Source: a virus
Strand: one strand, 5' to 3'
Length of the DNA: 64,000 bases
IMG/VR virus record: IMGVR_UViG_3300043395_000420
Coordinates: 29,246 to 93,245 of that record
Both the position numbers and the translations under genes were made by a program. Below, one piece after another: positions 1-31,600 of this stretch (its first letter is position 1; each line of letters starts with the position of its first letter). Below the pieces are notes generated by a model. It had not been told where the DNA came from, did not search any database, and worked only from the letters and a program-made list of their open reading frames with translations.

Positions 1-1522
1 TTGCTGCAGAATACTTAGCATCTATCGCTTCCTTGAGAGGGATAAGAGTATCATAAAGTATTTCGGAAACACCATCTGTATAAATACTATTTGTATGTAC
101 TTTACTTTGTACCATCCTACTACGAATCTTTGTGATAAGTTCGTATAAGGGACTGTCACTATCTATACCTGCTTTAGTAAATGTCTTCTCATATTCTTTA
201 ATAAGAGACTCCATAGTACTAAGTAATGAGTTAAGATAGAACGCAGTTTTTAAACTGTCTTTGTTATTTACATCTTTAGATATTTCTCTTAGTTGGTCAT
301 TAATACGTTTAACCATAACATCCAACTGCTCTATACTATTAATAAACGCGAGCATTTGTGCACGTTCATAGGTAGCATCCTGCATTGCTTGGTCTATACC
401 GTTTTGGTAATCCTTTAGTAAAGATCTAATCTCATTAATATCTTTACGTTCATATTCATTCTTAAGTTCCGACAGGGCCTCTCTAAACTCCCGGTCATTC
501 TTCATCTTCTTAAGTATAGATTGTACACGGTCATATAAGCTACTAATAGAACTCTGTAGTTTACCTTCATTACGAAGAGTAATCAGGTCATTAATAAACT
601 TATCATGGTCAGCCGCATATGCCGCAAAAGAGTCATCAGTTACAAGTTCTTTATTAAAGGTAAACTGGTTATTGGCCTCAAGCATCCGGGCTAATTCAAG
701 TATAGAAGTAGATTCAGATAAGGAAGATATGTCAATACGTTTACCAAAGATCTTACGTAGTGCTTGTTTAATAGCATATAATATTTTCTGTACTATGGAT
801 GAGAGATTGGGAGAAATATTTTGTTGTAGAGATTTTAGGTTGGCAATGTCAGTTAACGTTTTTACTATCACCTCCTCTGCAAAGTATTCTGTCCCTTCTG
901 CTAATGACGGATGAGATGCCTTGACATCTTCAATAATCTGTGGGTTGGTAGCAGATATTTCAGCATATAGTTTATCAAACAAAGATTTATTTTCTTTTGC
1001 TAGGGCCCTTACTATAGGATGACAGAACTCATGGAATACTGTCTTAGCCGTTACAAAGTCATTTACTAGATATACTGTATCTCCTAGAAAGAATCCGGGT
1101 TTACCATTTCTATACTGGTTTTCCGGTGCTAGATTAGCAGTTATTGCTGCTGCTTCTTCTGCTGTAACCATTCTATACTGTATACCAAGGTTACGTTGTA
1201 ATGCTTCTGCTATTTCTATTATTGCAGATCTAGATGACAGGTCTTTAAATACTTCTTTGTTTACTACAGGTTCTGCCATTACATGGTAGTCAGGTCTTCC
1301 GGCAACATATTGTCCGAAACCATCATACGTATCTGTAACTACTTGTTTATCAGATAGTTCTAATGCATAACCTTGATCGTTTAGTACAGGTAAGAACTCT
1401 TCAGGGGTAGGTAAACTATCCATGTTACGTTCTTTAGCATAGCGTAATGCCTTGTCAGCAAGATGCTGTCCAAACTTTTCTTTTAACGCGTCAAATTCCG
1501 GGGTGTTTCTACTGCAAGCCAT
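1..1522 (-). CDS. Zinc metallopeptidase-like giant phage protein, C-terminus off left edge
   Basis: Open from an ATG at 1522 to the window edge (about 507 codons), so the C-terminus is missing. The start overlaps the stop of the 4419-aa gene by one base (TAATG), which indicates translational coupling. The protein begins MACSRNTPEF. At residues 164-168 it has HEFCH within TVFHEFCHPIVRAL, an HExxH zinc-peptidase helix. A following acidic stretch (EGTEYFAEEV) could supply the third ligand. After about residue 280 the sequence becomes highly helical and Lys/Glu/Asn-rich, probably coiled coil. crAss-like phages often encode such zincin-like domains in their giant virion proteins. The substrate is unknown; processing of the neighbouring giant proteins or of host proteins is possible. 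The peptidase motif is seen directly; the role is inferred. Confidence 0.75.
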   Translation of the reverse strand, partial: MACSRNTPEFDALKEKFGQHLADKALRYAKERNMDSLPTPEEFLPVLNDQGYALELSDKQVVTDTYDGFGQYVAGRPDYHVMAEPVVNKEVFKDLSSRSAIIEIAEALQRNLGIQYRMVTAEEAAAITANLAPENQYRNGKPGFFLGDTVYLVNDFVTAKTVFHEFCHPIVRALAKENKSLFDKLYAEISATNPQIIEDVKASHPSLAEGTEYFAEEVIVKTLTDIANLKSLQQNISPNLSSIVQKILYAIKQALRKIFGKRIDISSLSESTSILELARMLEANNQFTFNKELVTDDSFAAYAADHDKFINDLITLRNEGKLQSSISSLYDRVQSILKKMKNDREFREALSELKNEYERKDINEIRSLLKDYQNGIDQAMQDATYERAQMLAFINSIEQLDVMVKRINDQLREISKDVNNKDSLKTAFYLNSLLSTMESLIKEYEKTFTKAGIDSDSPLYELITKIRSRMVQSKVHTNSIYTDGVSEILYDTLIPLKEAIDAKYSAA

Positions 1523-4500
1523 TATATACTACAACTTAAAATATCATTTAATATGTCATTAGTTACTTCGGTGTCTGATACTACCTGGTCTCTTTGAACT
1601 TTTTCCGACATCTCTACAGAACCTTTAGCAAATACTCGTGGTAAAGAATTAGGATTTATATAACCAAATGCATCATACAGCCTCTCAGACAAATATACGA
1701 AAGTTTTAGGTGCGGATTGTGGATTTGCCGGTACATTTTCTTCAACAGAACCTATAACCATTCCATTTTCTTCCCATCTATTAATCATAGACTGACCCAT
1801 ACCTCTAAAATTAAATCTTAATACTTTGTCAGGATTAAGTTTCATTTTTTCTACTAGGGCCTGAATAGCAGCATCTATCTGTTGAATGTTATAGTTATAC
1901 TCTTCTTCAGTTTCTTCTACTAGTAAACCTGAAGGTGTAATAGTATTAGTTGTTTTATTCAATGTTCCCTTTGGTTTTCCTGTTTTAGGATCTACGGGTA
2001 TTGCTAAGAACTTAGTAGGTATTCCAAAATAGTTATCTGGTCCTAGACCTGCTAAAACGGCTGATGTTTTATTTAGATCTGTAGTATTAGCAGTACGGCC
2101 AGGTTTTGCCATTACGGTATCAGTTACAAATATTACATTAGGATTAGCCTCTTTAATCTTTTGAATATCAACAGGTTTAAGATTATCAGGAGTTAATGTA
2201 AAATCATATACAGGTATGCCGGTTCCGTTTTGTAAACCTACCATGAACCCATTAGGATTAGATGCTTGTGTAGGTTGAGTAATAGTAGACTTTGATACTA
2301 TTTGCTGGTTAGTACTTACAGAAATTTGAGTAGGTTTAGACCAAGTACCAATAACTTGTCCATCTACTGTAATTTCAGAGTAATTATATCCAGCTTGTTT
2401 CATAGCATCATATAATCTTTTTTCTCCTGTGTTATAGTCACTAGCGTCAGTATAGGCTTTGTTATCTGTAAGAATAGTAGCACCTGCTTCAACAGCCTTA
2501 ATAGCTTCAGCTATTGTTCTATCTTGTTGAGTTTTTTGCTGTTCTTCAGTACCTCTTTTACCACCAATAGATACAAAAATTACATCATTAACTGAATAGT
2601 TACCTGTATTAGCAAAATTACCAGCTTGTTCTCTATATAAATCTGTAGAACTGCCCTTTATACCTTCTCCAAATCCTATATATTGTGTAGCTATGCTGGC
2701 TTTAATAACTGCTTTTTTATCAGCAGCTTGTATAGGTTTTACCGTAAATATATTTTTCTTAGTAAATTTATCACCTGTACTTACAGGAGCTTGTGATTGA
2801 GATGGTTGTACTACTTCAAATTCTATAGCATAAGGATAATTACCCACATGTCTATCTGTAACAGATTTAACCCAACCTTCTTTTTGCCAAGTAGCATCTT
2901 GATACTCTTGTGTAAAAGGAGATACTTTAGTAATTCTAGTATAAACTTGTCTACCTGTATTATCAGTCATCCGGATAACTTTACCAACTAAGTCTTCAAT
3001 TTTAGAAAGATTATAGTCTTTCATCATTCTAGAAACATCAGTCTTAGCTCTAGTAGTTCTAGTTCTATCTCCAGAAATAATAAGATCCATGGTAGATTTA
3101 TCTTTAAACTGTGGTTGCATAGTTCTTGTTTTCCACACATCTCCTTCTTTATATTTAGAACCATCGGCAAAATTTTGTTCAATAGCTGGTAAACTATCAG
3201 CTACAATAAACTCATTACTTACAGGTTCTTGTGCAGGTTCTTCACCAACAATTTCTGGAGTACCTAATTTTTGACTAGTAGCAATATAGACCATATCAGT
3301 TGCTCTAGATACAGCCACATATTTTAATTCTTGCTGTACGTTTTTGTCTTTGAAACTGTTAATAGTATCATCTAATATCAATACTTTAGTATAAGTACCT
3401 CCTTGAGATTTGTGAATAGTATGAGCATACCCGTAGTCAAAAGTTTGATTAAATAAAGTTTTACCATTTTGAATAACAGGTTTCATTGAAGTTATGGCAT
3501 TTTCATAGTCAGATGCTTTTTGAAAATATGATGCTGCAGCACGAATATCTCCATCTTTTTTTAACCTAGCCCCTGCTTCTCTTAAATCTTTAATAGTTTT
3601 TGATAATCTTATTAGTTTAGAATCATCATCATTAACATCTGCTACAAATATTACTTCTGGTTTTTCATCGGCTTTTCCTAATAGATTTTGAATAGTTACC
3701 TTATAACCTTTAAATTCAACTTTATCACCCAATAAATCTAAAGTTACAGTAGAAGGTTTTATATCTAATACTTCATAGTCACCACTATTCATTATTTTAT
3801 ACTGACCTGTTCTATAATTTTTATCAAAGTTACTTCTTCCCATTATCAGGTCTCCGACAACAAGTTGCTGTTGAGCAGCATCTCCAAAAAGTAATTTTCT
3901 AACTTCTTTATTTTTAGCAGTTACTACAGCATTAGTAGCAGATAAAATTCTAAAGTATAACTTATTTTTTGCAAACTCTGGACTTAAGAAGTTTTCTTTA
4001 ACAGCTTCGTTTACAAATGTATTGTTATCACCATAAACTACTCCTATACCATTAACTACTTTTGTTTTATAGTTAAGTTCTTTACCATTACGCAAATTAG
4101 TAGACTCTTCTAAAATAGGGTTGTCTCCTGTTCTTTCTACCTTAGTTAATTGCAACTGGGTTCCTTTATCAAAAACTTTTGATAGGTTATCTTGTCCTAC
4201 AGGTCTTAACTGTGCAGGATCTCCCATGTATATAATTTTAAGATTAGAATTTTTCTTTTTTTCTTCTTGAATAAAAGCAAATAAACCATCAGCAACCATT
4301 GATGCTTCGTCTAGTATAAGCACGGTAGACTCGTCTGGTTTTAATACACCTTTATTTTGTTTAGCAAAGTTTAGTTTTGCAAGATCATACTCTTCTTCAA
4401 AATTAAAATCAGGATTTAAACCAAACAATGAATGTAATGTATACACTCTTACATCTGGATTTTTAAGTTTTGTTACAGCATTTGCTCTATTAGTAGGAGA

Positions 4501-7500
4501 TGTATAAATAATAGAATCTAATGATACCCTTTGCAGGTATGCATCAAATATTTTCATAATACTAGTCTTACCTGTACCGGCATATCCTTTTAAAGTAATC
4601 TGATTATCATAAGCAGCAGGGTTTTTATAAAACTTTTCTAGTTCTAATAAAGCCTCTGTCTGTTGATCATTTAATTTAAACGGTGTGCTAATAGTAACAC
4701 CGTCACTAAATGTCATAGTATTAGCAGGTTGTGATTGATTAGGACTAATTTGACTAGACTTAGGCTGTCTGAATGGTTGTTTATTTTGAGGATCAATATT
4801 TGGATTATTATTATAAGCAGCTAATAATTTTTCTTTTGCTGACTTTTTACCCTTATAGTTTAATACATCAACACCAACACCGTTTTCTACTTTTATTTTA
4901 TACATTGCTCCAAAGTACTTATAGTCATCTTCAAAAGATGTAGGTGTTTCTTCAAATAATTCAAATATGCTTTCTTCTTCAGTTTCAAACTTGTAACCTG
5001 TTTTCTCTAGAATATCTACAAACTCTTTAATAACAGCATCTTTTTTAGAACTAAGTACAACATTTGCAAAGTTTGGATCATAGAAAGTTCTAAATCTCTT
5101 CGCAATATTACTTTTTGCTTGAGAGTTAGTTCCTATAAATATCTTTCTATACTGATCAAATAATAGTTCTGTTAGTTTATTATTTGAATTAGGTACTGCT
5201 TCTAACTGAGTTACGGTATCAATAAACTTACTAACTGGTTCAGCTAGTAGTTCTGATATAACTTTGCTATCTGCAATACTTAATATACTAAATGTACTAT
5301 TAGGATTACTTCCACTTTGTAAGTATGCAACAACATCAAATCTATTAAAGAACTTACTGATATTCTCAGCATCAATGGCAGATATACCAAACTTATCTTG
5401 TAGAATACTAGGGTTCTTTAGTTCATTTAAGTTTTCAGAATATAGATTCTTCTGGTCAATTTCTAATAATGTATCCCTAAACCGTAATGTATTTACGTTT
5501 GCTTTAACATAACTAGAATATGATGATGCCATACTAGAGAATACATCTACTTCTAATGCAGATAATAGATCATAGTATTCTGTAATCTTTTTGAAAGCCG
5601 GATTAGATACAATTTGATCATACTGATATGCATAAGAGTTATTTCCGGTAAATATCCAATACGGTAGATTTATATTATTAAGAGCATGATTACGTAAATA
5701 TGTTTCATACGCCCAAAGTTTTACAGTTTCCTTATTAATGGTGGTAGATTCACCCTTACGTAGTAAAGTTTTGTCTAGATATTTTTCAGATAGTTCTTTT
5801 TCTATCTTCATGTACTCTGCACTTAATGCAACAACAGAGTATTTATAGTTAGGTAATGCTCTTAAACTCTCTCTTTCATATAAGTATTTCTTGTACATAT
5901 CTGCTTCATTTACTCCGGTAAACACATTAGCAGGTAAAGGAGCAACATCTGCATCTAAATACTGTAACTCATTGGAATAGAACTTGTTATATAAGTTTTC
6001 AGCTATAGAGTTTTGATCAACATATATCTTTCCGTCTTTATAAATAGCTGCTCTTCTTGCATAAGGAACTGTAGCAACATCTAACTCAGAGTTTAATACA
6101 TAACTTCTATAGTGTTTATTACTAGGTAATGTAAAGTACCAGTTATAAAATATATAAGGACTAAGTTGCTTCTTGAAATTATCAATTACGGAAGCCTTAT
6201 CAAATGTTACATTTACTCTAGTTTCTCCCATTCTCATACCACTTATATAAGATTCAATATTGGGTTTAGCAAAATATGAATTTATAGAAGTTGAGTTACT
6301 TAAAGGGAAGAAAGGTTCGTATAAACCAATCATAAACTCTTGTATTTTAAAACTACCGATAGGTGAGTTTTTAATAATACTTTCATAAACATCAGGATCC
6401 AAACCTTTAAACTGAGATGCTTTAATATCTTTTCTTAACTGAACTCTAGCATCGTGTAAAGAACTACTTCTTGTAGTATCAAATTTAGTAGCCTGCTTAA
6501 TCTCTGTTAAACCTTTAGACATCTCCAGGATTTCCATAAAATGTAAAAATACATTTCTATCAAAATCTGTATATACGTCTTTGGTTTTATCATCATTAAG
6601 GTTATCTAAATTATCTTCTAATGCCTTTTCATTAAAATAGTTTTCATCAAGATTAGTAAGAGCAATACGGAAATAGTCGTATAGTTTATTTTTAGCAACT
6701 CTTACTTTACCATTAATAGCATTGTATCTATAGTTCTTTGAGTTATCAGGATAAAAACTTTCTTCATTTAATCCAAATCCGTATTTAGAATTTTCTCCAA
6801 ACAAAATACTATCTCTAGCATCAGTATTATGCTGATTAAGTTCAGACTCTTTTCCTAGTACACTAGAGAAAGTTCCTTTTCTAGAACGAGCATCTGTAAT
6901 ATACTCACGTATAATTGGTTGTGATAAGAATAATACAGCTTGGTTAATGGGTACCCCGGTTTGAATTAAGAATAATAATACAGGAGTAAGTTCTTTATTA
7001 CCCTGTAAGTCAAAGATCCATTCGTCTTTTTCTACGTCAACCCAACCATTAATCAACTGGTTAAACAAGTCAGATATCTTATAGAAGTTATTTTTATCAT
7101 AACTATGTGATAATGAGATTCTTTGTTCTCCATTTACATTCATAGTATTATGAGGTAATAATAACACATTACGCATTAAATCACCTGCTTCATTAATTAC
7201 TTTTACATCTGACATGTAAGCACCGATACGGTTAAATACTACGTTAAATGTATTATCTACTGCACCAATACCAAGGGCTTGTTTACCTACAGAGTTATAC
7301 TCTAATTTAGCAAGGTTATACAAAGGCTCATATATACGAGTAGGAGAGAATCCGTTTGGTTCTCCGTTAAATCTTTTCTTTGACGAGTATACACGAGTTT
7401 TGTCTCTGAGTTTTTCTGATATAGGTTTAACAATAGTTGTACTATTAGGGGTAATTAAACTTACAAAGTTTTCAGGATCTAATATAAGATCTTTAGTAGC

Positions 7501-10500
7501 AAGTAATAACTGGTTTTCATATGCAGCCTCATTATCCATTTTCTTAATGAAGGCCTCTTCTGATGTAGCAAGATTATAGTTTTTAAGTATTTCTATAATT
7601 TCACTTTCAGTATAACCCATATCAAACCATTCTTCTCCTAGAGCAGCAGTAAGTATTGTATTTAATAGTTTATTAGACTGTTCAATATCAGTAGAGAATC
7701 TTTTAACAGTAGGACTTACATCACGCGTTAAAGCTCTACGTACAACATCTTTATCATATACTAAGTTACCTAGTTCATCTACAGTACTATTAATTACTTT
7801 AAACTCTTCAACTTCTATTGCTTTAGATTTTAAATTTTGGTATAGTTCTTTAAGGGCTGCTTCACCTCTAACATTTGCTATAGTTAGTTTTGAATTACCT
7901 TTTAGACCTTCCCATCTTAGTACTGGCATTTGAATACTAAGTTTATCAATGTCAAAGTCAGCACCAGACTTAGCAACAATTTCAGTTGCTGGTATGATCA
8001 TATTACCTGCTTCTTCTGGTAAGAATTCTGCAACATGCATTACTTCCATAGAGTTCAAACCTTGTACAGGAATACGAACCCCTACCATAGTTATCATGTC
8101 ACGGTTTTTAGATAACCATTTCTCATCTCTAATAATACTGTTTAGAGCATCTAGTTTAGAAATGTTTTCTGCTTTTGCTTTTCTTGTAACCTCGGGTAAA
8201 CTAAGTAACTTTTTAAAATGACCTTGTATAGATATTTTAACCTCCATACCATTACCAGGAGTATAGAACTTCAAATCATTTGTACCAGAGTACTTTCTTC
8301 TTTCTTCTTCTGTTGCATTTCTAAACTTACCTGCCTTTTCAAATCCAGCACTTGATGCCTGAATTAATGCTTCTCCGGTAACTTTTTGACGGATTAATCT
8401 TTTATTTACTACAGCCGTTAAAAGTTTTTCTATCTGTGAACTAAAGTTAGACAGATCAAGATTAACCATAGGGGCACTCTTTAATGCATCTATGAACTCT
8501 AACTCGTTATCAGATATTTCTTGACGGGTAAGTTGTTTTTCTATAAAGTCAATAAACTTAGTAAGATCTTTAGGACCTTTATCTGTCCAACCTAATTCTT
8601 CAACAAGTTGTTTTTTCTTAAACTCTGTAAGTTGTTTTAGAGCAGACTCATATCTTAAAATCTTAGTATATAGTTTAGACTCTGATTTTTTTACAGATTC
8701 ATCTTTTATAGCATTCCATGCATCATATCTTTCTGTTAAGTCTGTAATTTCTGGTTTAAAATCTACAGGTACTCCATTTTCAAAAGAACCTTCTTCTACA
8801 AGTTTACGTAACTGAGTAGAGAATATAATCTTCTCTTTAAACTCTGGCGCAACTTCTACTTGGTCTTTTAAATAATCTAAATAGATAACGTTCTTGCTAA
8901 AGGTAAATTCTGGTTCATTTAAAGCCAACCAACCTTCTTTGTTTGCATAAAACTTATCAAAGTTTCCATCATTAGTAACAGTTGCAAGTTTAGATCCTGA
9001 TGCAAATACAGCATAATCTATATCTTGCTCTACCATTTTATTATGTAGTTGTTCTAGTTTAGTACCTTTAACTACTGTAGGGATTAATGGCATTAATGAA
9101 AACTTATGAAATGCTTCTACAGGTAAACCGGTTGTAGCCAATGTTCCCCAGTACTGCATCTTTTTAATAGGAAAGAAGTTTGCAATATCTTCTGCAGAGA
9201 CATCATCTCCATTTAGAATTCTAACATATAACTTTTCATGAAGAGTTGTCCATTTATCTAAACCTCTCATCATCAATCTATAAGCATCAAAACTAATCCA
9301 TCCTTGAGCATCTCCTTCTTTCATTCCAGCATATGCATCATCAAATATATTATCTATATTTTGCATTGCTTTATTAATAGTATCCTGAGACGCGTTGGTT
9401 TTAGCAAGACGTTTTCTTTCTTTATCTTTTGCTGCTTTCTTATACTCATCAATATATACAGATGTGCTTACTACATCGGCTAATACTGCAGTATTAAATG
9501 TACCATTATAATCACGTTGACCTACAGTTGTACCATCTGCTTTTGTTTTGGGTCCGGTGTACCATGCAGATTCGGCATACTTACCTTTCTTAGCAGGTTT
9601 ATTTACATAGTTTTGGAAATGTATGTCTGTTCTAGGAGTTTCTCCAGTTGATCCGATACCGGCATTACGTTTATGATACTCTTCTTTTGAGTGATTATAT
9701 ATACCAGGATCTCCATAGTATACAAGACCTGTTTCAATATTATGTAATAACTGATTAGCTGTATATGCTTCTATCAATTGACGGCTAAGTTCTTCTCGAG
9801 TATACTCTTTTGTGTCTCCTACAATTTTTAATATATTAGGAGATAATAAATATCTAGAATCAAAAATACCTTCTTTTTTAAACTTATCTATTACTTGTTG
9901 ATATTGATTCTCTAAGTAACTATTTACCTGATTCTGATATGTATTAGCAAACTTTTCATTAGTATTTAATAGGTTCTTGAAATCTGCTGCTGTGGTAATA
10001 GTTCCCTTATCAATAAGGTTATAAATTTCTGTTTTTTGATCTTCGGTTAAGATATCATCAAACATGATAAACTTAGAACCTACTTCTGCAAGAGTTACAG
10101 GTTTACCTTTCTTTTCATATAAAACTATATTTTTAGCATCAGGATCTGTTTTTGCCTTATGAATTCTTTCAACTTCAGAACTTAAATAACCCATGTATGC
10201 AGCAAGAACTTTAGATTTTCCTGTACTAGATGTTGGATCTTTTGATGCAAACATTTTAGGATTAACATAGTGCTTTGATCCATCTGCGTGTATAATCTGA
10301 TATAGGAAAGTACTACTCTTACCTGCGTGACGTGTTGCTTCAGATGTACCATAGATCATCATCATATAGAAGTCTTGTAGCATTTTAGTAGTCATATCCG
10401 AGTCTGATGACTTAAGACCTACTAAATCTATTTGCTCTCCTATACGCATCTTTGTGCCGTCCATATCAAGAATATTAATTCTTGCATTTAAAACTTTACC

Positions 10501-13500
10501 GGTAGCAGTTACACCTTGGCGTTTAATTTTTTCAGGAGTACTCATGTCAAAAAGAATGTTCATGAGCATACTGTTTTGCATCCAAGGATTTCTATTCAAT
10601 GAAAGATTATTCATTATGTAAATAGGCATACCATTTACATTCTCTGTATTGTCTCTTACTAAATCTTCATAATTAATAGCATTGTTGATACTATCTGTTT
10701 TTCTGGTAATTGTGTTGGGTAATGAGTTTTCATACTTAGTTTTACCAGTAGTAGTTGTAATTGTACTATTAGAAAAATCTCCTGTCCACTGTAAATATAA
10801 ATTACCTAATGTAGTTTTAAAACCTGTAAAAGGTTGAAAAGTAGATTCTTTATACTGAGATTCTTGTTTTAAAAAGGCTTCTCTTAGAGACTTATCTTGT
10901 ACAAGTTTATCAAATGATTTATCAAGTAAGTCTGTTACTCTTGTAAGTTTTATAGGTTCTGCACCTGGTCTATTTAATTTTAACCAGGTATTAAATGCAT
11001 TTATTGCTCTTACTTTATTTTTTAAACCGTTGATTTCGTACAAGTTACCGTTTTCTTTACTAGACAAAGCATTCTTAACAACACTTAATTCTGGCATATA
11101 TAAACCAATAGCCTTTAAAAATGTAATAGGATCTTTTGAAATTACACTAGTAGACATGTATAGGTCTGATGTAAGTTGTTCAATATTAATACTTACAGCC
11201 CCTGTATCAGATGCCTTTACTCTATAAGGTTCTGTTTCACCAGATCTTGTAAATCTAGAGTTAAACAACTTAAATACTTTACTGCTTTCACGACTAGCAT
11301 TTCCAGGACGGATTGTTATATAACTTATATTACCCTTACTGTCTTTAGTTTGCTCAATATCTAAGTTTACAACATTAATTCTAGGTAAGGTAAACAGTTT
11401 ATTTATTTGTCCCCACATACTGTTTTCTAACTCACCTTTAATATTATCAGGATTACCAACCTTCTTTAAGAATGCTTTTACAATAGGAAATAGTTCTTCT
11501 ACTTCCTTTAGTTTATCATAAATTTCTTTAGGGTTACGGGCCCCTTGTGTAATATTTATTAATAAGTTTTGTGCAGTACGTGCTGGTACCATCTTAGGGA
11601 AACCTAAGTCATTCTTCTCAACCTCTCCATTATCATTATATGCTATTAATGTAGACAATGTATAAGATAACTTCTTGTCTATCATGTTATTAATAGAAAC
11701 TTCATTTCCGGACTTATCAGCATATTCTGATCTAGATGTTGTATTATCGTCTTTATCAGCCATGTCTGGTTCAAATGACTGGATATAGTTTTTTTCATAG
11801 TAACTAAGGATTGTTTCTCCTTCTTTAGGATTCATAGGATCCCCGAAGTTGTCTAACATCCATGTTGCTAAATCTATACGGCTTTTTATTTTAATCTTTC
11901 TTTTTTCTGCAGCCTTCTCATATTTTTCTTTTAAACTCTCAATATGGTTTACTAGCTTTTCCTGTACTTTTAAATATGCTGCCTTACGCATTGATGCCTC
12001 AGATATAATACCTATAGTTAAACCTTTAGTATTATACTCATCATTAAGGTCATCAATACTTTCTGACATCAAACCATTCATGCTTTTCATGATAACAGCA
12101 GTGTCGGATAATGATCTGTTTTTAATTTTATTAAGACCGGTTTCTATAAATACAGCATCTGGTTCAAAGACCGGCTCTCCTAATTTACCTACAGCAAGTT
12201 TTTCAAACATCTCTGCTACTTTAGCATTTGCTGTATAGTCTGCTTGGGTTTCTCTAATAGTTGTGTTACTAAATAAATACTGTAATAACTCAAATATCTT
12301 ACTGAAAATCTCTGCAATAATACCTTTGCTCTTGGAGTACTTACCTTTTCCACCACGTAGCATGTGTTCGCGGAACTGTTCTGCTAACCATTCTTCTTTT
12401 TCTAACTTGGTAGCATTTTTAAATTCAACAGTTTTACCGTTATAATTTTCAAATGATCCTTTCATTTGACCAACTGCGTTGTAAAGATCTTCTCTTTGTT
12501 TAGCAGTTAAAAATATTTGAGAAAATGCATGCCATGCCTCATGGTATAAATCAGAAGCATCTGCCCCTTGCCATAAAGTAATACCTGCTAAATTCCAATG
12601 TGCTACTACAGAAGGATCTGTATTAACTGCATCAAACATTACTGATATCGGTACTACATCTGATAACATTCTACCATCAGCAAGTCTGATACTATTATAC
12701 CAGGGTAATGCTGCATTAATAACATCTTGAGATGACTTAGCAGTACTTGGTTTTCTACCTGCTCTTAGTAACAAACTGTCATCTATAAGATTATTTTTCT
12801 TGATTGTATTACTTGCAGATTGGGTTTTAGTTTCAGGTTTTACTTCAGGTATTTTCATACCTAAACTTTCTAAAGCTCGTTTATTAATTTCGTTTTCATA
12901 ATCTGCTGTTGTGGTTGTGCCAGAAACAGATTTATCAAACTCAGTTCTTGAAAGTTGAGAATGTTGATATTCATGTTCTATAACAAAAGACTCCCATTCT
13001 TCATATGTTTTAAACATATCTTCAGGAAAGGCATTTGCACTAGAACCATCTTTTTGTATGCGGGGTGTTGTCCAGGCTTTACTTTCAAACTTACTTTTTA
13101 ATACTGGTTTATTAACGTATATGGTATTATTAGTGCTATTATACTGTGCTCCACCTGGTTCTCCTGTCTTAGAAGTTATTGCCTTTTCTATAATAGGAAC
13201 ACCTTTATAATTTTCTTGAGTACTTTTTGTAATTTCTTTTTTAGTTACTGTACCTGGCATGAATTCTAAATAAGCATTCATTGGTACAAAGTCTCCATTT
13301 TCAACTTTATTTGCTACATAAGCATGCTGTCTTATAAATTCACCATAAGGAATAGTATCAATTTTTGCAGTATATGTACCATCAGCGTTTTGACGTACAT
13401 TACTAAATGTACGCACGGTTGTCATATTATTTTTATATAGATATAGACCGCCTCCCTCGTTATTTACTATAGCATCTGCTATTAAATCTCTAGCATTTGT

Positions 13501-14781
13501 TGTTGTACTGTCTACAGTTTTACCATCTATCTTAATAGAAAGTTCTTCTCCTTTCTTCATTAATACTATACGACCACTTCCTACAGGTAAAAAGTAAAAG
13601 AAGTTTGCTTTATCACTTTCTTTTAGAGTAACCGTCTGTTCCTTTTTTTGATATGATATAGGATTAAGAAGAAAATCCGCCATTTCCAGTGCCTCCTCCA
13701 TAGTAATGCTGTCCATATATATTTGGACATCTTTATTCATAGATGGAGAACTGATGTATATAGAATTATCAGGGCCCTTTTTTAAATTTAGATTTGGGTA
13801 TATTGTTTTAGATAAATCCGTTAATCTTGTTTTATCTGCAGCCATTGTTAAGAAACCAACGTCACCGTTAGTTATCTCATTGATAATGATGTTATTAGCA
13901 GGATCTCTTGCAATAGAACTTGTCATTTTGTCTACTGTTTCTTTCTGCTTACGTTTTTCTTCTGTATTTGGATTTTGTACAGTTTCTAACTTGGTTCTTA
14001 CATAAAAGTATACAGGCTTACCATTTGTTTCAACATATTCACCATTACTATTAAACTCTAAAGGATTTCCTTGAGCATCTGTAAGTACCTGTATATAAAT
14101 TTGATCTAAGTATCTTAGTAGTTCAGGATTATCTTCTATATCTGCAAGTTGTCTGCTGTCTAATTTATCTAGTGGAATTCTGCTTAATGCCATTGTTGTA
14201 AGATATACCTTTCCAGAATATCCTTTAATGGTCATATTAGCAGCCATCATGTTTCTGATAATTGTATAAAACATTTCTACAGAAAAGTTTTCTTCTTGTC
14301 CTGTAGTAGTAAACATGCTGTCTGGAACAGGATAGTCTACTTGTTTTATCAATTGTGAGTTTACTTTAGCATTAACATCATCTTCTGCTTGCTGGTTTCC
14401 GGCAATAGTTGCTGCTTCTTGCAGGTCAGTTTTAGTTATAGTTTCAACACTGATATATTTGGCAACAGTGTTTAGATCTGGATTAGTTCTCCATTCTTTT
14501 GCTAACTTGTTATTACCATTAAGATCAAAATTAGTATCCGTCATATAATCAGATACGGCAACATATCCTGCAGCCTGTCTAATCATATCGGGTACTAGAT
14601 GGGCATATGACAATGCCTTATCTTTATCTTTAGACTTTTCTAAAACATAGTCATACAATTCTTTAGCAATTGCTTGAGGATCAATGTTTTGTTTTTTGTT
14701 TTTTACATCTTCTATAGATTCTCTAACAAATCTATATACGGATGCTAAGGATTCATTACTGTCTATTGCGCAAAAAGCCAT
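1522..14781 (-). CDS. Giant 4419-aa fusion: single-chain RNA polymerase with metallopeptidase motifs, SF1 helicase and ASCH-like domain
   Basis: One uninterrupted frame, far longer than the roughly 2200-residue virion RNA polymerase known from Cellulophaga phage phi14:2. Visible in order: HEYQH at 603-607 and HEAWH at 747-751, both HExxH zinc-peptidase motifs. A beta-like double-psi-barrel region follows around 1890-1930 (FHKFSLMPLIP, then SGSKLAT with a candidate catalytic Lys). The beta-prime-like catalytic loop DFDID is at 2275-2279, preceded by RIPVQGLNSMEVM; the three Asp should bind the catalytic magnesium. A superfamily 1 (RecD/Pif1-type) helicase follows, with GYAGTGKT at 3399-3406, DEAS at 3491, HKSQGGTY near 3790 and VAVSRATD near 3824. 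An ASCH/PUA-like region lies at about 3887-3990, then two domains I do not recognise (about 4007-4150 and 4174-4370). By homology it is probably packaged and ejected to transcribe early genes. The polymerase and helicase calls are strong; the packaging is inferred. Confidence 0.88.
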   Translation of the reverse strand: MAFCAIDSNESLASVYRFVRESIEDVKNKKQNIDPQAIAKELYDYVLEKSKDKDKALSYAHLVPDMIRQAAGYVAVSDYMTDTNFDLNGNNKLAKEWRTNPDLNTVAKYISVETITKTDLQEAATIAGNQQAEDDVNAKVNSQLIKQVDYPVPDSMFTTTGQEENFSVEMFYTIIRNMMAANMTIKGYSGKVYLTTMALSRIPLDKLDSRQLADIEDNPELLRYLDQIYIQVLTDAQGNPLEFNSNGEYVETNGKPVYFYVRTKLETVQNPNTEEKRKQKETVDKMTSSIARDPANNIIINEITNGDVGFLTMAADKTRLTDLSKTIYPNLNLKKGPDNSIYISSPSMNKDVQIYMDSITMEEALEMADFLLNPISYQKKEQTVTLKESDKANFFYFLPVGSGRIVLMKKGEELSIKIDGKTVDSTTTNARDLIADAIVNNEGGGLYLYKNNMTTVRTFSNVRQNADGTYTAKIDTIPYGEFIRQHAYVANKVENGDFVPMNAYLEFMPGTVTKKEITKSTQENYKGVPIIEKAITSKTGEPGGAQYNSTNNTIYVNKPVLKSKFESKAWTTPRIQKDGSSANAFPEDMFKTYEEWESFVIEHEYQHSQLSRTEFDKSVSGTTTTADYENEINKRALESLGMKIPEVKPETKTQSASNTIKKNNLIDDSLLLRAGRKPSTAKSSQDVINAALPWYNSIRLADGRMLSDVVPISVMFDAVNTDPSVVAHWNLAGITLWQGADASDLYHEAWHAFSQIFLTAKQREDLYNAVGQMKGSFENYNGKTVEFKNATKLEKEEWLAEQFREHMLRGGKGKYSKSKGIIAEIFSKIFELLQYLFSNTTIRETQADYTANAKVAEMFEKLAVGKLGEPVFEPDAVFIETGLNKIKNRSLSDTAVIMKSMNGLMSESIDDLNDEYNTKGLTIGIISEASMRKAAYLKVQEKLVNHIESLKEKYEKAAEKRKIKIKSRIDLATWMLDNFGDPMNPKEGETILSYYEKNYIQSFEPDMADKDDNTTSRSEYADKSGNEVSINNMIDKKLSYTLSTLIAYNDNGEVEKNDLGFPKMVPARTAQNLLINITQGARNPKEIYDKLKEVEELFPIVKAFLKKVGNPDNIKGELENSMWGQINKLFTLPRINVVNLDIEQTKDSKGNISYITIRPGNASRESSKVFKLFNSRFTRSGETEPYRVKASDTGAVSINIEQLTSDLYMSTSVISKDPITFLKAIGLYMPELSVVKNALSSKENGNLYEINGLKNKVRAINAFNTWLKLNRPGAEPIKLTRVTDLLDKSFDKLVQDKSLREAFLKQESQYKESTFQPFTGFKTTLGNLYLQWTGDFSNSTITTTTGKTKYENSLPNTITRKTDSINNAINYEDLVRDNTENVNGMPIYIMNNLSLNRNPWMQNSMLMNILFDMSTPEKIKRQGVTATGKVLNARINILDMDGTKMRIGEQIDLVGLKSSDSDMTTKMLQDFYMMMIYGTSEATRHAGKSSTFLYQIIHADGSKHYVNPKMFASKDPTSSTGKSKVLAAYMGYLSSEVERIHKAKTDPDAKNIVLYEKKGKPVTLAEVGSKFIMFDDILTEDQKTEIYNLIDKGTITTAADFKNLLNTNEKFANTYQNQVNSYLENQYQQVIDKFKKEGIFDSRYLLSPNILKIVGDTKEYTREELSRQLIEAYTANQLLHNIETGLVYYGDPGIYNHSKEEYHKRNAGIGSTGETPRTDIHFQNYVNKPAKKGKYAESAWYTGPKTKADGTTVGQRDYNGTFNTAVLADVVSTSVYIDEYKKAAKDKERKRLAKTNASQDTINKAMQNIDNIFDDAYAGMKEGDAQGWISFDAYRLMMRGLDKWTTLHEKLYVRILNGDDVSAEDIANFFPIKKMQYWGTLATTGLPVEAFHKFSLMPLIPTVVKGTKLEQLHNKMVEQDIDYAVFASGSKLATVTNDGNFDKFYANKEGWLALNEPEFTFSKNVIYLDYLKDQVEVAPEFKEKIIFSTQLRKLVEEGSFENGVPVDFKPEITDLTERYDAWNAIKDESVKKSESKLYTKILRYESALKQLTEFKKKQLVEELGWTDKGPKDLTKFIDFIEKQLTRQEISDNELEFIDALKSAPMVNLDLSNFSSQIEKLLTAVVNKRLIRQKVTGEALIQASSAGFEKAGKFRNATEEERRKYSGTNDLKFYTPGNGMEVKISIQGHFKKLLSLPEVTRKAKAENISKLDALNSIIRDEKWLSKNRDMITMVGVRIPVQGLNSMEVMHVAEFLPEEAGNMIIPATEIVAKSGADFDIDKLSIQMPVLRWEGLKGNSKLTIANVRGEAALKELYQNLKSKAIEVEEFKVINSTVDELGNLVYDKDVVRRALTRDVSPTVKRFSTDIEQSNKLLNTILTAALGEEWFDMGYTESEIIEILKNYNLATSEEAFIKKMDNEAAYENQLLLATKDLILDPENFVSLITPNSTTIVKPISEKLRDKTRVYSSKKRFNGEPNGFSPTRIYEPLYNLAKLEYNSVGKQALGIGAVDNTFNVVFNRIGAYMSDVKVINEAGDLMRNVLLLPHNTMNVNGEQRISLSHSYDKNNFYKISDLFNQLINGWVDVEKDEWIFDLQGNKELTPVLLFLIQTGVPINQAVLFLSQPIIREYITDARSRKGTFSSVLGKESELNQHNTDARDSILFGENSKYGFGLNEESFYPDNSKNYRYNAINGKVRVAKNKLYDYFRIALTNLDENYFNEKALEDNLDNLNDDKTKDVYTDFDRNVFLHFMEILEMSKGLTEIKQATKFDTTRSSSLHDARVQLRKDIKASQFKGLDPDVYESIIKNSPIGSFKIQEFMIGLYEPFFPLSNSTSINSYFAKPNIESYISGMRMGETRVNVTFDKASVIDNFKKQLSPYIFYNWYFTLPSNKHYRSYVLNSELDVATVPYARRAAIYKDGKIYVDQNSIAENLYNKFYSNELQYLDADVAPLPANVFTGVNEADMYKKYLYERESLRALPNYKYSVVALSAEYMKIEKELSEKYLDKTLLRKGESTTINKETVKLWAYETYLRNHALNNINLPYWIFTGNNSYAYQYDQIVSNPAFKKITEYYDLLSALEVDVFSSMASSYSSYVKANVNTLRFRDTLLEIDQKNLYSENLNELKNPSILQDKFGISAIDAENISKFFNRFDVVAYLQSGSNPNSTFSILSIADSKVISELLAEPVSKFIDTVTQLEAVPNSNNKLTELLFDQYRKIFIGTNSQAKSNIAKRFRTFYDPNFANVVLSSKKDAVIKEFVDILEKTGYKFETEEESIFELFEETPTSFEDDYKYFGAMYKIKVENGVGVDVLNYKGKKSAKEKLLAAYNNNPNIDPQNKQPFRQPKSSQISPNQSQPANTMTFSDGVTISTPFKLNDQQTEALLELEKFYKNPAAYDNQITLKGYAGTGKTSIMKIFDAYLQRVSLDSIIYTSPTNRANAVTKLKNPDVRVYTLHSLFGLNPDFNFEEEYDLAKLNFAKQNKGVLKPDESTVLILDEASMVADGLFAFIQEEKKKNSNLKIIYMGDPAQLRPVGQDNLSKVFDKGTQLQLTKVERTGDNPILEESTNLRNGKELNYKTKVVNGIGVVYGDNNTFVNEAVKENFLSPEFAKNKLYFRILSATNAVVTAKNKEVRKLLFGDAAQQQLVVGDLIMGRSNFDKNYRTGQYKIMNSGDYEVLDIKPSTVTLDLLGDKVEFKGYKVTIQNLLGKADEKPEVIFVADVNDDDSKLIRLSKTIKDLREAGARLKKDGDIRAAASYFQKASDYENAITSMKPVIQNGKTLFNQTFDYGYAHTIHKSQGGTYTKVLILDDTINSFKDKNVQQELKYVAVSRATDMVYIATSQKLGTPEIVGEEPAQEPVSNEFIVADSLPAIEQNFADGSKYKEGDVWKTRTMQPQFKDKSTMDLIISGDRTRTTRAKTDVSRMMKDYNLSKIEDLVGKVIRMTDNTGRQVYTRITKVSPFTQEYQDATWQKEGWVKSVTDRHVGNYPYAIEFEVVQPSQSQAPVSTGDKFTKKNIFTVKPIQAADKKAVIKASIATQYIGFGEGIKGSSTDLYREQAGNFANTGNYSVNDVIFVSIGGKRGTEEQQKTQQDRTIAEAIKAVEAGATILTDNKAYTDASDYNTGEKRLYDAMKQAGYNYSEITVDGQVIGTWSKPTQISVSTNQQIVSKSTITQPTQASNPNGFMVGLQNGTGIPVYDFTLTPDNLKPVDIQKIKEANPNVIFVTDTVMAKPGRTANTTDLNKTSAVLAGLGPDNYFGIPTKFLAIPVDPKTGKPKGTLNKTTNTITPSGLLVEETEEEYNYNIQQIDAAIQALVEKMKLNPDKVLRFNFRGMGQSMINRWEENGMVIGSVEENVPANPQSAPKTFVYLSERLYDAFGYINPNSLPRVFAKGSVEMSEKVQRDQVVSDTEVTNDILNDILSCSI

Positions 14782-14791
14782 TGTATTATAA

Positions 14792-17700
14792 TTAGCAAAT
14801 GTTAATGTTATTCTTTGCGGAGTTTTTATCTCCGTTAACTTCTTTTTCTATTTGGTTTTTAGTTTCTTCAGTAAGTTCTGCTATACTTGCAGATATATTT
14901 TCTGCGGCCTGTTTTTGTGCTTCAGGGTCTGATACAGCACCAGGCATAGCTAGGTCTCCTGTTTGACTATATACACCTATAATAGTTTTGTCAAATACAT
15001 TTTTAGTCATTGGTGCACCTGTTCCTTTCATACCTATTTTTTTATAATATAATTTAGACTTGTACATACCGGTAACATATAGTAGTTCACCGGTATTCGT
15101 TACTAAGATATGGCCTTTTTTTACATCTACAAAATTAGGAGTAGAAGAAACTTGTTCTAATTTTTCTTGTAGTTTTTTCTCTGCTTCTAATCTACTGACT
15201 CCTATGAAGTTATAGTCATCATCAGTAAATAAACTAAGTTCATACATCATATCTTTGACCGCAGTCATAGAGTCTAAACTGTCAATTTGCTCTAGCAAAG
15301 GTTTGCTTGTAAGGTTTAGAGTAGTTCCTTGTGGAGAAACGTTTCCTTCTAGTACATCTAATACATTATCTGTATCTACTGTAGCATATTTTTTATCTTT
15401 TCTTGCTAACAACTCATAGGATCTTCTGTTTTGTACAATGTCTGGATCAGACTCAGTTCTAAAATATACAGAAGTATCTTTAGGCACTATTACTAAATCT
15501 ATTTTACCAATGTATAAAGGTGATAAATAGTTTTGTGAACTTGTAACAACAGTGTATCCTTTATTTGCTTCTCTTCGCATTGCATCTAAGGCAGCACCAT
15601 ATGCTGATTGTATTGCATCACGTTGAGCATTTCCTGCAGGATCATTTGCCAAGGAGTCAAAGAATTCTTTAACTTTTTGATACATGTTTTCTTTAGTAAC
15701 ATCTTGAAATAACTCTATACCAGAATTTTTAAATGCTTCTACTATAAAGTCATCTCCAGATATTATGGCAGCATCTGTATCAAATGCTGTTTGCGTATCC
15801 ATACCGGAACTTACATATACAATACTTCCTTTGAACATATCCAAAACTTTTGAATCTGGATTAACATCAGGTATACTAGTTTGTACCGGTGCTTGTTCTT
15901 CTTCTGTAAAGTTCCACTCATTACTATTTAATAAAGCCGTAAATACAGTCTCTGCATTTTTAATAGGTGTAACTACTGGTGTAAGAGTTCCTTGTTGATT
16001 AACTTCTTCTGCTGAAACTATCTTACCCTCTTCAACTTTAAATACAATAGATCTAGACATTGATGGTCCGTTACCTTTCCAATTTGCTGTAACTTCACCA
16101 TTTGTAATAGTAATTTCAAATGCTGGAGTTGTAACAGGTACAAGTTTAGGAGCATTGGTAACTTTCATACCAGATCCTTGATAATTATCTATAACATCAT
16201 ACTGCGTTACATCAATATTCTCATCCTGTTCTACAAAACGATATCCTGTAGGAGGTATGACAACATTATCCGGTTTAGTTCTATTTGTCAGAATTATATC
16301 TCTAGCTTCTTCAGGAGTCATTGCGTTAATATCATCAGGACTATACTTTAATCTTCTTAATGTATTTTTCTCCTTTGGTGTCAAAGGATTAGGTCCTGTC
16401 ATAGTACCTGCTGCTGGAGTAGGTTGTGCAGCACTTGCTACTGAAGCATTATAGTCAGATATTATTTTAGCAGAATATGAACTAGTTTTAACCCATTCTT
16501 CAAAATCATCTTCTTCTCCATTATATGCAGATCTTAACTGATTTTTTAATTCAGTTGGCATTGCATTATAAGGTGTATTTACTGTAATCTCTTGATCTGT
16601 TTTAGCAATAGTTTCTTTAAAATATACTCCAGAAGGTTCTAACTTATTGGAAGCCAATGCAATAGTCTCATCTAAAATAGTATTTTCATTACTTACACCT
16701 AATATACTACGAAGTACTTGCCTAACTGCCTCAACAAAGTCTTCCCATAAAGTAGTTGTTTTCTTTTCAGTTTTTACTAATTCAAGTAGTTGCTGAAATG
16801 CAGGATTAGTCAATGCTTCTGTAACAAAAGATTCTATACTATCTACAGGCATCATAGCACCTTCTAATCCTAAACTCTTTAGACTATTATCAAGATTACC
16901 ATTATCTAATGCATTTTTAAATTCTGCTATAAGATTATTAATGGCTGTATTAAACTCTGCATTAGTACTACTTTCTGATATCATCATTGTAGTAATACCA
17001 TTAATTAAAGAATACTCAAAGTTAACATTACCTCCTTGATATTCGAACGTAGAGTATCTAGGATCTATAATTAATCCGTTAACAGGATCATATGTATTAT
17101 AGTTTGTATGATCTAGTTTAATAGTTGCTTTTCTATCTCCTACTAATGGTCTTAGTCTTTGTGCTAATTTTTTAGCAACTATACTGCTTTCAGAAGAGTT
17201 AATAATAAAATCTAATAGTTTCTTTAACTCTACTTCTCCACCGGTCTTTGGGTCAAACCCTAGTTCTTTTGCTAGGTCTGCTATAGTTCTATTATCGTTA
17301 GTATCTCTTCTAGGACTAAACTTACCCATTGGTACATTAGCACCTGTAATGGGTTTATTGGTTGCAGTCTTTCCGGTTAACTGTTCTAACTTATCTACTA
17401 ACTCTATTATCTTTTGATATCTTTCATCATTAGGTAATATTTGTTTAAGGGTAGTTGCATCATAAAAAGAATCTGGAATTCTATTTTTATCTACTAAAGC
17501 ATCTACATCTTTAGGATCAAAAAATACATTCATGTTCTGTAACTCATTGATAAACATATTATTAATATGCATCTCCATGAATTTTTCAGACATTTCTTTT
17601 ACTTTAGCCTTTGCAATTTTTTGAGATTCTTCAATAGCCGTTTTAATACGTTGACTCATTGTAGCAAAGTACTCAGGATCTATTAATCTGTTTACAAACT

Positions 17701-28648: not shown

Positions 28649-31600
28649 TTACTTGTTTTTCCTAGGAAGACTCTTGATCTTTACTTTCTTTATAGCACCA
28701 CCGTTCTTTTTAAAATAAAAGTCTCTACCATCAGGATTTGATATACCATCAGGTATCATGTTTTTAGCTGAAGTTTTATATAAAATTTCTTCTTTACTTT
28801 TATTAGGTATAGGTAATAATCCAATTGTTGCACCATATGCATTATTAAATATATCTTCTAATGCTTCTCTTCCTTTATACTTTAATGGTCTATTATCATT
28901 AAATATTGTACCTAGTTCATGTCCTACTCCCATAGCATTTGCACCTAACCAACCTAATGCTGGAGAAATTACAGGTATGTTTCCTGTTTTCTTTGCTATA
29001 GCTTGTTGAGTATACATACCAGCTAAAGGATGTCTAAAATTATCTACTGGATCTTCTCCTGGTTCTATTCCTTCTTCTGCTTCACGAGCTGCTTTACCCA
29101 TAGGATCTCCTAATGATTTATTTAATCTATCCTCATATGACATTCTTGTTTCAATAACAGGTAAAGATCTTTCACTATGCGTAGATTCCCAGATATCATT
29201 TTCCGGATTATATATCATAGAAAACTTTTGCAATTCTGTATTAGGAATAACATTACCTTTTGAATCTATATATCTAGCATATGTTTTAAAATTCGGATCT
29301 AAATATATACTTTCACCTGTTGGTGTTTTGTATTCTTTACCTTTAGCACCACCATCTTGCATTCTTACTAGACCTCCATTCTTAAATTCATATTGACCTA
29401 GATAGCTACCACCATTTTTGAAACTAACAAACTGTTTATTGACAGCTGGTTTATCTGTTTGACTTTCATAAAGTTTAGAACCTAGATAACCTGCACCTAT
29501 TGCAGGTACTGCAACTGGTAATATTTTAATTGCAGCTCTTTTTTCTGCTAAAGATGTTTCTGGTTTAAAATGTTTATTGAGATTTCCTTCTTCAATTAAG
29601 TAATCTGTAAAATCATCTCTATCCTGTTTAAGAATTTTTACAGCTTCTTCCATAGATATACCGTGATCTTTCATCATATCTTTAGCAGTTTTTAATCTAG
29701 CTTTACCTAATTCTGAATGTAATTCTCCAAGACCTGATAACCATGTTTGATAAGTATATTTACCATTATCAGGAGCGGTTGGTTCTACCATAATACTTTT
29801 AAACATTTTAGCTAAATCATTTTTATCATGATTTACATAATAAGCGTAATTAGGATCATGGTGTTGTACAGCATCTATCCAGTTATTAATTAACTGTCTA
29901 TCATGATTTATTTCATGAATACCTACCCCACCTACTTCAGTAGGATTAACCAACATATTTTGCTCTAAATCAACTAATGATTTTTTAGTTTTTGTTTTAA
30001 AAGGATTTGACCAACTCCAAGGTAATTTTTCTTTTTTTATGTGAGTTGTTATAATAGGTTTTTTTCTAGTACCTAATGTAATTGTACTATTATTTAGTCT
30101 AACACCGCCTATATCGTCAATATTTTGTCTTAAAAAGAGTTTTTCAAGTTCTAACAAGTTTTGAAAACTAGGGTCATCCTCATTAAAATATACTAACTTG
30201 TTTCTTTCATCATTTGGTAAAACCACTTGTAGTTTATCAATATCATAATCATTATTTGCTTTCTTTAACTCTAATGCTTTTCTTTCAAATTCAGGATCAT
30301 ATATACTAATACTATTTTTTAAATCATCTATGGCTTTATCTAATTCGGCTTTTTCATTAAAAGTAGTTAACCATAGAGTATTTTCTTGTCTTTCTAATGC
30401 TTCTTTTTCATCTGTTAATCTTGCAAGATTTTTTCCTTCTGTATCACTAGCTAATTCTAATTCTATTTCATTAGATCTTTTATCCAACTCAGCTACTTTA
30501 TCATAATATTCTTTATCTTTAATAGCTTTTGCATCCTTAAGTTTTTGTATTTCAGGTTTTATTTTTTCATAATCTTCTAAACCTTGCTTACTATATGTCC
30601 ATAATTTATCAAACTCTGTAGCTTCATCAAATGCTTTTTGTTGGTCTGCTCTTGTAAAACTTTTTGAATAACCCGATTCAGGTACTCTGTCTATACTTAC
30701 TTTTTGACGTTCTAAATCTTGCAGACCTTCTAACTCTATTTCGTCTAAACTCTTACCAATTTTGTTTTCTTTAAAAAATTCATCTATAGTACGATTGTTA
30801 TATACTTTAGAAGGTATGTTTTTTGAAACTTTTTTTGCAATTGACCCAAATGGTAAAAATCCTGCAATGTTTAGTCCTGCTTCTCCAGCACCACCCCAAG
30901 TAGTATATGTTTCTTTTTCTCCTAAGTCTCTACCAACTCTTCCTATATCCATTAGTACAGATGCAGGATTGAATGCTCCTATTATATCACTCATAGGAGA
31001 TGATGTAGGATAGTTACCACTTAGGTTACCTTGTGGTATATAACCTCTTTGTATCAATGATCCTAATGCATCAAGAGGTTGATCCATTGCATAAATAAAC
31101 TGGTGCTTTAATCTTTCAAAACCTTCAGGTGCAGGTTTAAGAGTCCCTTGTTGATCTGCCAAATATTTTTCAAAATCTTCTTTTTTAGTATCTATTACTA
31201 AAGGTGCCATTGATGTACCAGATTCCCATATATTATCTTGCACATCAAATAAAGACATGTTCTGATCTGGCGTTATAGCATTACCTTTTTCATCTACATA
31301 GTAACGTTGGTTCTTAAACCTAGGATCTAAATATAAACTTTGTCCTGTAGGAGTTTTATACTCTCTCCAACCTTTACCTTTAGGACTAACTTGACTTGGT
31401 GAGTCATCTCCCTGCATCTTTACTAACCCACCGTTTCTAAACATATACTTTCCTAAGTAAATACCTCCACCGGTTTCCATTGCACTTAAACCTTTAGTAT
31501 ATAAATTCTGATGACCTCTTGATCTATTCTCCCATTTTTCAGGAGTAATTCTCCAACTTCTAATAGGTTCAAGTGCTTTTTCACCAGGTGTTCCTAAATG

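Follow-up and report, generated by a model that had tools for sequence, protein, structure and literature searches.

A giant crAss-like virion-type RNA polymerase chain that carries a Dda-like helicase in a variable region

Introduction

Few viruses in the human gut are as abundant as the crAss-like phages. The virion RNA polymerase (vRNAP) of phage phi14:2, gp66 (PDB 6VR4), is a two-barrel single-chain enzyme of 2,180 amino acids with the motif DFDID, encoded in a late-gene setting and followed by a very large gene; record notes on gp66 and its neighbours cite virion MS/MS. Mass spectrometry found the RNAP-associated proteins gp47, gp49 and gp50 in crAss001 virions, and partial unfolding of the crAss001 RNAP proteins is thought to be needed for them to pass the tail (PMC10172136). 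CrAss-like vRNAPs are up to about 6,000 amino acids long (review, PMC10136315).

Giant chains in which RNA polymerases, zincins and exchangeable domains are joined, and whose genes lie beside late genes, have been described as polyvalent proteins; they include the N4 vRNAPs, in which zincin and ART domains are joined to the polymerase, and the zincins were proposed to process the chain (PMC5512222, with no mention of crAss). The N4 enzyme is T7-like. In phage P23-45, gp96 is a virion protein of about 5,000 residues with a two-barrel vRNAP at its N-terminus, joined to a tape measure; no helicase is mentioned (PMC10770324). Two Suoliviridae proteins, from cr50_1 (QOR58058.1) and cr118_1 (QOR58373.1), hold a zincin, an RNAP and an SF1 helicase and are annotated as 'DNA helicase' only. 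The SF1B helicase Dda of T4 is a stand-alone early protein of about 440 amino acids, outside any polymerase chain.

The chain described here shares with gp66 the two-barrel single-chain polymerase, the DFDID motif, the late-gene setting and the very large gene that follows; gp66 has no helicase match, no HExxH and no match to the C-terminal cap. It differs from the N4 vRNAP in its two-barrel polymerase and from gp96, with its tape measure, in the placement of the polymerase, and its helicase has the same motif set as T4 Dda. It has the domain order of the cr50_1 and cr118_1 proteins, but the RNAPs are only 21-24% identical, those proteins have about 900 extra N-terminal residues, their helicase is at the extreme C-terminus, and the modules T1 and T2 and the cap (Table 1) were not found in them.

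Results

The window is a stretch of 64,000 nucleotides, bases 29246-93245 of a virus record of 93,245 bases. The giant gene is read on its minus strand as one frame from ATG to stop, 4,419 codons with no internal stop codon. A sequence-only reading of this DNA had described a single 4419-residue frame with HExxH motifs at residues 603 and 747, DFDID at 2275-2279 and a helicase motif set from 3399 to about 3824. All of these were found as described, with Walker A (GYAGTGKT) at 3399-3406 and motif VI at 3822-3828. Its wider claim, that a virion-type (crAss-like) RNAP, an SF1 helicase and zincin motifs are joined in one chain, also held, but the exceptional length that it ascribed to the chain did not. 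CrAss-like vRNAPs had been taken to be about half this length, which is wrong: GenBank holds versions of 4,774 (cr50_1), 4,946 (cr118_1) and 4,551 (cr55_1) amino acids, and since crAss-like vRNAPs of 3,000-5,000 residues are common, great length was rejected as a sign of novelty. An IMG/VR record (G018, the record behind L048) has a 6,681-codon frame with RNAP and helicase matches, which exceeds the review's figure of about 6,000 amino acids.

The genome setting is that of a crAss-like vRNAP, with structural genes nearby and a second large conserved gene. TerL of the window has its best matches in crAss-like phages, at about 25% identity. The portal (phrog_6547) and MCP (phrog_11589) genes, both of crAss-type families, are on the same strand as TerL and the giant gene, and the replication genes (DnaB-like helicase, primase and DNA polymerase) are on the opposite strand in the left arm. 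A homolog of the 1,875-amino-acid downstream gene directly follows the RNAP gene in dozens of relatives, L009, L010, L094 and L148 among them. The vRNAP gene is separated from the structural genes by further giant minus-strand genes, at 28649-35137 (2,162 amino acids, HExxH at 1741) and 14792-20581 (1,929 amino acids), with no PHROGs matches.

Table 1. Features of the giant gene and of the gene downstream (positions in the window; aa, residues of the protein).
Feature	Residues (aa)	Position	Strand	Basis or remark
Whole giant vRNAP gene	1-4419	1522..14781	-	4,419 aa, ATG start, no stop inside
Z1, accessory zincin-like module	540-645	12847..13164	-	HExxH at 603, DNA 12961-12975
Z2, core zincin-like domain	690-1000	11782..12714	-	YHEAWHAFSQ; HExxH at 747, DNA 12529-12543
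M, conserved stretch from zincin to polymerase	1000-1500	10282..11784	-	kept in L009, L010 and L094, among others (best E 1e-100)
Two-barrel RNAP core	1500-2690	6712..10284	-	6VR4 by sequence and predicted fold; tblastn to crAss-like RNAPs
DFDID	2275-2279	7945-7959	-	motif inside the RNAP core
Post-polymerase conserved block	2690-3258	5008..6714	-	end of the fixed core; kept in L009, L133, L148, L094 and others
P/Q/S/T-rich linker opening the variable bay	3259-3353	4723..5007	-	PQST content; stretch shared with L015-L023
Dda-like SF1B helicase	3354-3840	3262..4722	-	phrog_325, PDB 3UPU, motif table
T1, ASCH/PUA-like module	3855-3998	2788..3219	-	relatives 67-79% identical; AlphaFold and Foldseek
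T2, alpha/beta module	4004-4165	2287..2772	-	66-77% identical in L018, L097, L132, L114
C-terminal cap	4270-4419	1525..1974	-	36 proteins with core and cap
Downstream gene, start		2..1522	-	1,875 aa, extends past the left edge of the window; has HExxH (residue 164)

Residues 1490-2790 match phi14:2 gp66 and other crAss-like RNAPs by tblastn, and the DFDID motif aligns with its counterpart in gp66. The sole significant sequence match of the polymerase in the PDB is 6VR4 (E=1.1e-25). An AlphaFold model of residues 1500-2690, made with a 25-sequence input (pLDDT 78.9, pTM 0.76), again had 6VR4 as its sole significant match in a fold search (E=8.5e-33), with QDE-1 and the PhiKZ non-virion RNAP among the matches of lower confidence. 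A lack of two double-psi barrels had been named beforehand as a result that would count against the sequence-only reading; the predicted fold matches the two-barrel vRNAP 6VR4. By homology and predicted fold, the window polymerase belongs to the crAss-like virion RNAPs of the gp66 type. An N4-type (T7-like single-subunit) polymerase was rejected, there being no T7-type RNAP match in Pfam and the predicted fold being two-barrel. In two relatives (L005:14229-14523, which is cr108_1, and L030:6335-7208) the RNAP is split into two frames at about position 670 of the model, just before DxDxD, possibly an intron or homing-element site. Seven other loci (L014, L026, L181, L187, L188, L192 and L196) have RNAP or helicase frames with many in-frame stops under table 11, which suggests stop-codon reassignment.

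The assignment of Z1 and Z2 as zincins is a prediction from the HExxH motif and its conservation; no Pfam zincin model matches either of them. The Z2 domain is present in 82 frames of the set, and its HExxH is kept in about 70 of the frames examined, including those of cr50_1, cr118_1, cr55_1 and cr108_1. Z1 had no match in the phages collection. Its counterpart in L132, 49% identical, is N-terminal as well, and L132 is the only relative sharing that position; in L143-L147 and L167, HExxH modules related to Z1 close the chain at its C-terminus. Z1 might be an internal copy of the post-polymerase block, to which jackhmmer links it, but direct BLAST between the two in the window gives E=2.

By motifs and family similarity the window helicase is a Dda-like SF1B enzyme, for which ATP-dependent unwinding in the 5'-3' direction is predicted. 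It matches phrog_325, 'Dda-like helicase' (E=4.6e-82), the Pfam families AAA_30 and UvrD_C_2 above cut-off and, in the PDB, Dda (3UPU, E=5.5e-16), and its seven helicase motifs (I, Ia, II, III, IV, V and VI) are all intact. The other fused copies examined keep the motifs intact as well; the exception is cr50_1, whose motif V is altered, and in several helicase-first copies motif VI was not resolved.

The two stretches of the chain that are richest in P, Q, S and T, residues 3337-3357 and 4155-4169, lie one at each end of the variable bay, whose boundaries were chosen for this comparison after the homology blocks were already known. Residues 3277-3360 are common to L015-L023 and stand immediately ahead of their helicases. 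Downstream of the helicase, T1 matched no Pfam ASCH model, even at E values as high as 1. An AlphaFold model of residues 3855-4170, compared by Foldseek, resembled ASCH structures with probabilities of 0.7-0.9 and E of 0.1-0.2 (PDB 5y6c, probability 0.89, E=0.1) and viral ASCH proteins with probabilities of 0.99-1.00 and E=1e-3 to 1e-2. What remains of the ASCH-like domain proposed from the sequence is a weak-to-moderate resemblance of the predicted fold, while a match to a curated Pfam model was not obtained. T2 had no confident fold match by AlphaFold and Foldseek, and its sequence match is to a Vibrio phage Kuja gene pair only. The cap is followed by 0-23 residues in the 36 proteins that have both core and cap.

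In 26 of these 36 proteins no more than 130 residues separate core and cap; five exceed 400, and the window has 1,011, figures that describe a set of loci partly sampled by helicase similarity and are not population estimates. The closest relative, L009, is 47% identical to the window in Z2, 54% in the RNAP, 38% in the post-polymerase block and 39% at the C-terminus. Helicase, T1 and Z1 are missing from L009, and any T2 in it is distant; where the window has the helicase, the L009 bay shows a match to a 2OG-Fe(II) oxygenase (AlkB-like), an enzyme found in the bay or tail of L097 and L130 as well. Elsewhere the bay or tail contains cpYpsA SLOG, NADAR, RNase H, an ART-PolyVal domain together with a helicase, or other SF1 helicases; an ART-PolyVal domain is present in L139. 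At L121:14888-16471 the tail of the giant vRNAP protein has an RNase H (Pfam PF00075, E=1.4e-11). Comparison of the relatives leads us to conclude that a conserved zincin-polymerase body and a cap flank a putative payload bay. Because the helicase slot elsewhere holds different enzymes or nothing, the polymerase looks like a carrier of interchangeable tools.

A rival reading is that an assembler merged two unrelated genes in frame; the window comes from a metagenomic record, and no near-identical contig was found for the exact join. However, cr50_1 and cr118_1 have zincin, polymerase and helicase in the window's order in single genes, many IMG/VR contigs show that order, and single frames with DxDxD and a full helicase, of 3,367 and 3,599 amino acids, occur in the genomes of the named strains Spirosoma oryzae DSM 28354 and S. 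terrae KCTC 52035, respectively. Contig L027 matches in block order, with the post-polymerase block, helicase and cap, plus the homolog of the window's downstream gene, and in the window codon-position GC is even over the polymerase-helicase join. The join, on which the sequence-only reading had asked for a check of read coverage, is thus found in independent assemblies, isolate genomes included, and an assembly artefact is extremely improbable.

Both orders of fusion, polymerase-helicase and helicase-polymerase, are present in IMG/VR, and the bay modules are more alike than the polymerases that carry them, with 66-79% identity between proteins whose RNAPs are 27-38% identical. For T1 the identities to the window are 79% (L130), 67% (L162) and 68% (L109), against RNAP identities of 30, 27 and 36%, respectively, and in L109 this module stands ahead of the polymerase, at the N-terminus. 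The four relatives with T2 (Table 1) have RNAPs 35-38% identical to that of the window; in L018 the values are 77% for T2 and 36% for the RNAP. T1, T2, Z1 and the helicase are each seen at differing positions and on differing backbones. In L132, T2 is inserted within the polymerase span (residues 2244-2387).

On the RNAP tree the polymerase-then-helicase state required 8 changes and the helicase-then-polymerase state 2, gain and loss not being separable; the trees were built quickly and have long branches, and helicase presence was scored by HMMs of limited reach, the helicases of L106, L139 and L149 being detected by Pfam and jackhmmer beyond the reach of the helicase HMM (A2). One helicase clade (support 100/98) takes in the window, cr50_1, L030 and L015-L023, whose polymerases are scattered. 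By RNAP, cr50_1 and cr118_1 are sisters, and a single clade of their helicases was rejected (p-AU 0.0002). These tree conflicts, the state changes and the module identities speak for helicase modules having moved from one polymerase backbone to another. We conclude from these comparisons that helicases were probably gained or lost repeatedly and that modules were exchanged. A single ancestral fusion followed by losses only is weakened by the AU test and the module identities, although some losses are likely.

The proposal that came with the sequence-only reading was that the helicase could open promoters or move DNA during ejection, work that the N4 polymerase leaves to host factors. In such a coupled motor the helicase would open promoters, melt the template or move incoming DNA for the attached polymerase, in place of host factors such as the SSB and gyrase used by N4. 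Helicase and vRNAP have been joined on several separate occasions, in both orders and with intact helicase motifs; such recurrent joining to one polymerase family could mean functional coupling, and fusions of a vRNAP to a large protein have been proposed to couple DNA translocation with early transcription (PMC10770324). Against this, L009 does without a helicase, the 26 bays with short spacing are nearly empty, unrelated enzymes occupy the bay of other relatives, and the helicase lies before or after the polymerase in no fixed position. The proposal is weakened by these results, and we regard such a coupled motor as unlikely. We think it quite unlikely that the chain is self-sufficient, with a helicase that would load on ejected DNA and melt promoters or draw the genome in, so that host helicase, SSB and gyrase would not be needed, an arrangement that would have been reached repeatedly and in both orders. 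An optional payload is what is expected from a helicase that is missing in the closest relative, sits in a variable bay and has no fixed order.

The fused helicase could also be a relocated replication enzyme, replacing a stand-alone early SF1 helicase of the p-crAssphage gp14 type and acting in replication once the chain has been delivered and cleaved. The window's record, cr50_1, cr118_1 and most fused IMG/VR records have no Dda-like helicase besides the fused copy, and a separate Dda-like helicase with no fusion detected is found in p-crAssphage, cr11_1 and G040. However, G020 has both a fused and a stand-alone copy, and the Dda-like helicase model had no hit in 23 of the 24 IMG/VR records searched whose polymerase is unfused, some of these records being fragments and the reach of the model being limited; a function that most unfused relatives appear to lack would not be obligatory. 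We consider relocation rather doubtful, and the simple move of a universal replication helicase is weakened by the same 23 records. As most unfused records have no detectable Dda-like helicase, we conclude that the helicase is accessory, sometimes fused, sometimes separate and mostly absent.

Discussion

The reading that we favour, and hold to be probable, is that the giant protein is a polyvalent, virion-delivered crAss-like polymerase chain with a bay of swappable payloads, the helicase being one early-acting payload. As in other polyvalent proteins, the chain is longer than 2,000 residues (4,419), has several domains, shares its coding strand with the TerL, portal and MCP genes, and has domains that are exchanged in varying order. 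Its fixed body would consist of Z2, the linker region M, the two-barrel polymerase and the post-polymerase block, closed by the fixed C-terminal cap, with Z1 as a second zincin-like module on the N-terminal side. The bay, with P/Q/S/T-rich linkers at its edges, would take modules exchanged between phages, here the helicase, the ASCH-like module and T2.

Because the phi14:2 and crAss001 relatives were found in virions, we infer that the 4,419-residue chain is packaged in the virion, ejected with the DNA and refolded, and, again by analogy to characterised relatives, its polymerase part would transcribe the early genes. One or both zincins may cleave the chain during or after delivery, and the cap may act as a packaging or ejection signal. 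The payloads would then be the first phage enzymes in the cell. The helicase would act on the incoming DNA within the first minutes, clearing proteins or R-loops or helping replication or repair to start, as a co-delivered tool and not as an obligate part of the polymerase. In the relatives, an AlkB-like oxygenase payload could reverse alkylation damage in nucleic acid, and SLOG, NADAR and ART payloads, all from established families, would suggest a link to host-defence signalling by nucleotides or NAD.

The polymerase family, the polyvalent proteins and the individual fused genes are already in databases. In the literature searched, from which subscription journals were mostly outside the scope, we found no paper on a vRNAP-helicase fusion and no description of the recurrent joining of polymerase and helicase or of the core-bay-cap organisation. 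Under the bay model, the virion polymerase would serve crAss-like phages as a carrier that brings a varying set of enzymes into the host ahead of all gene expression, which would account for the great length and variability of these polymerases. The stretch from core to cap would then be a map for finding early effectors, and the core-bay-cap frame a natural design for phage protein delivery.

The Spirosoma fusion loci look like prophages, because a crAss-type portal and terminase are encoded on the same contig and strand as the fusion, within about 60 kb. Such apparent prophages with fused copies could make both the payload and the coupling models testable in culture. Apparent crAss-like prophages were seen in chromosomal contigs of Spirosoma oryzae (L198), Spirosoma terrae (L204) and Chitinophaga sp. 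YR573 (L177), where the genes for a crAss-type portal, the terminase and the giant vRNAP share a strand, the Chitinophaga vRNAP frame having 5,491 codons.
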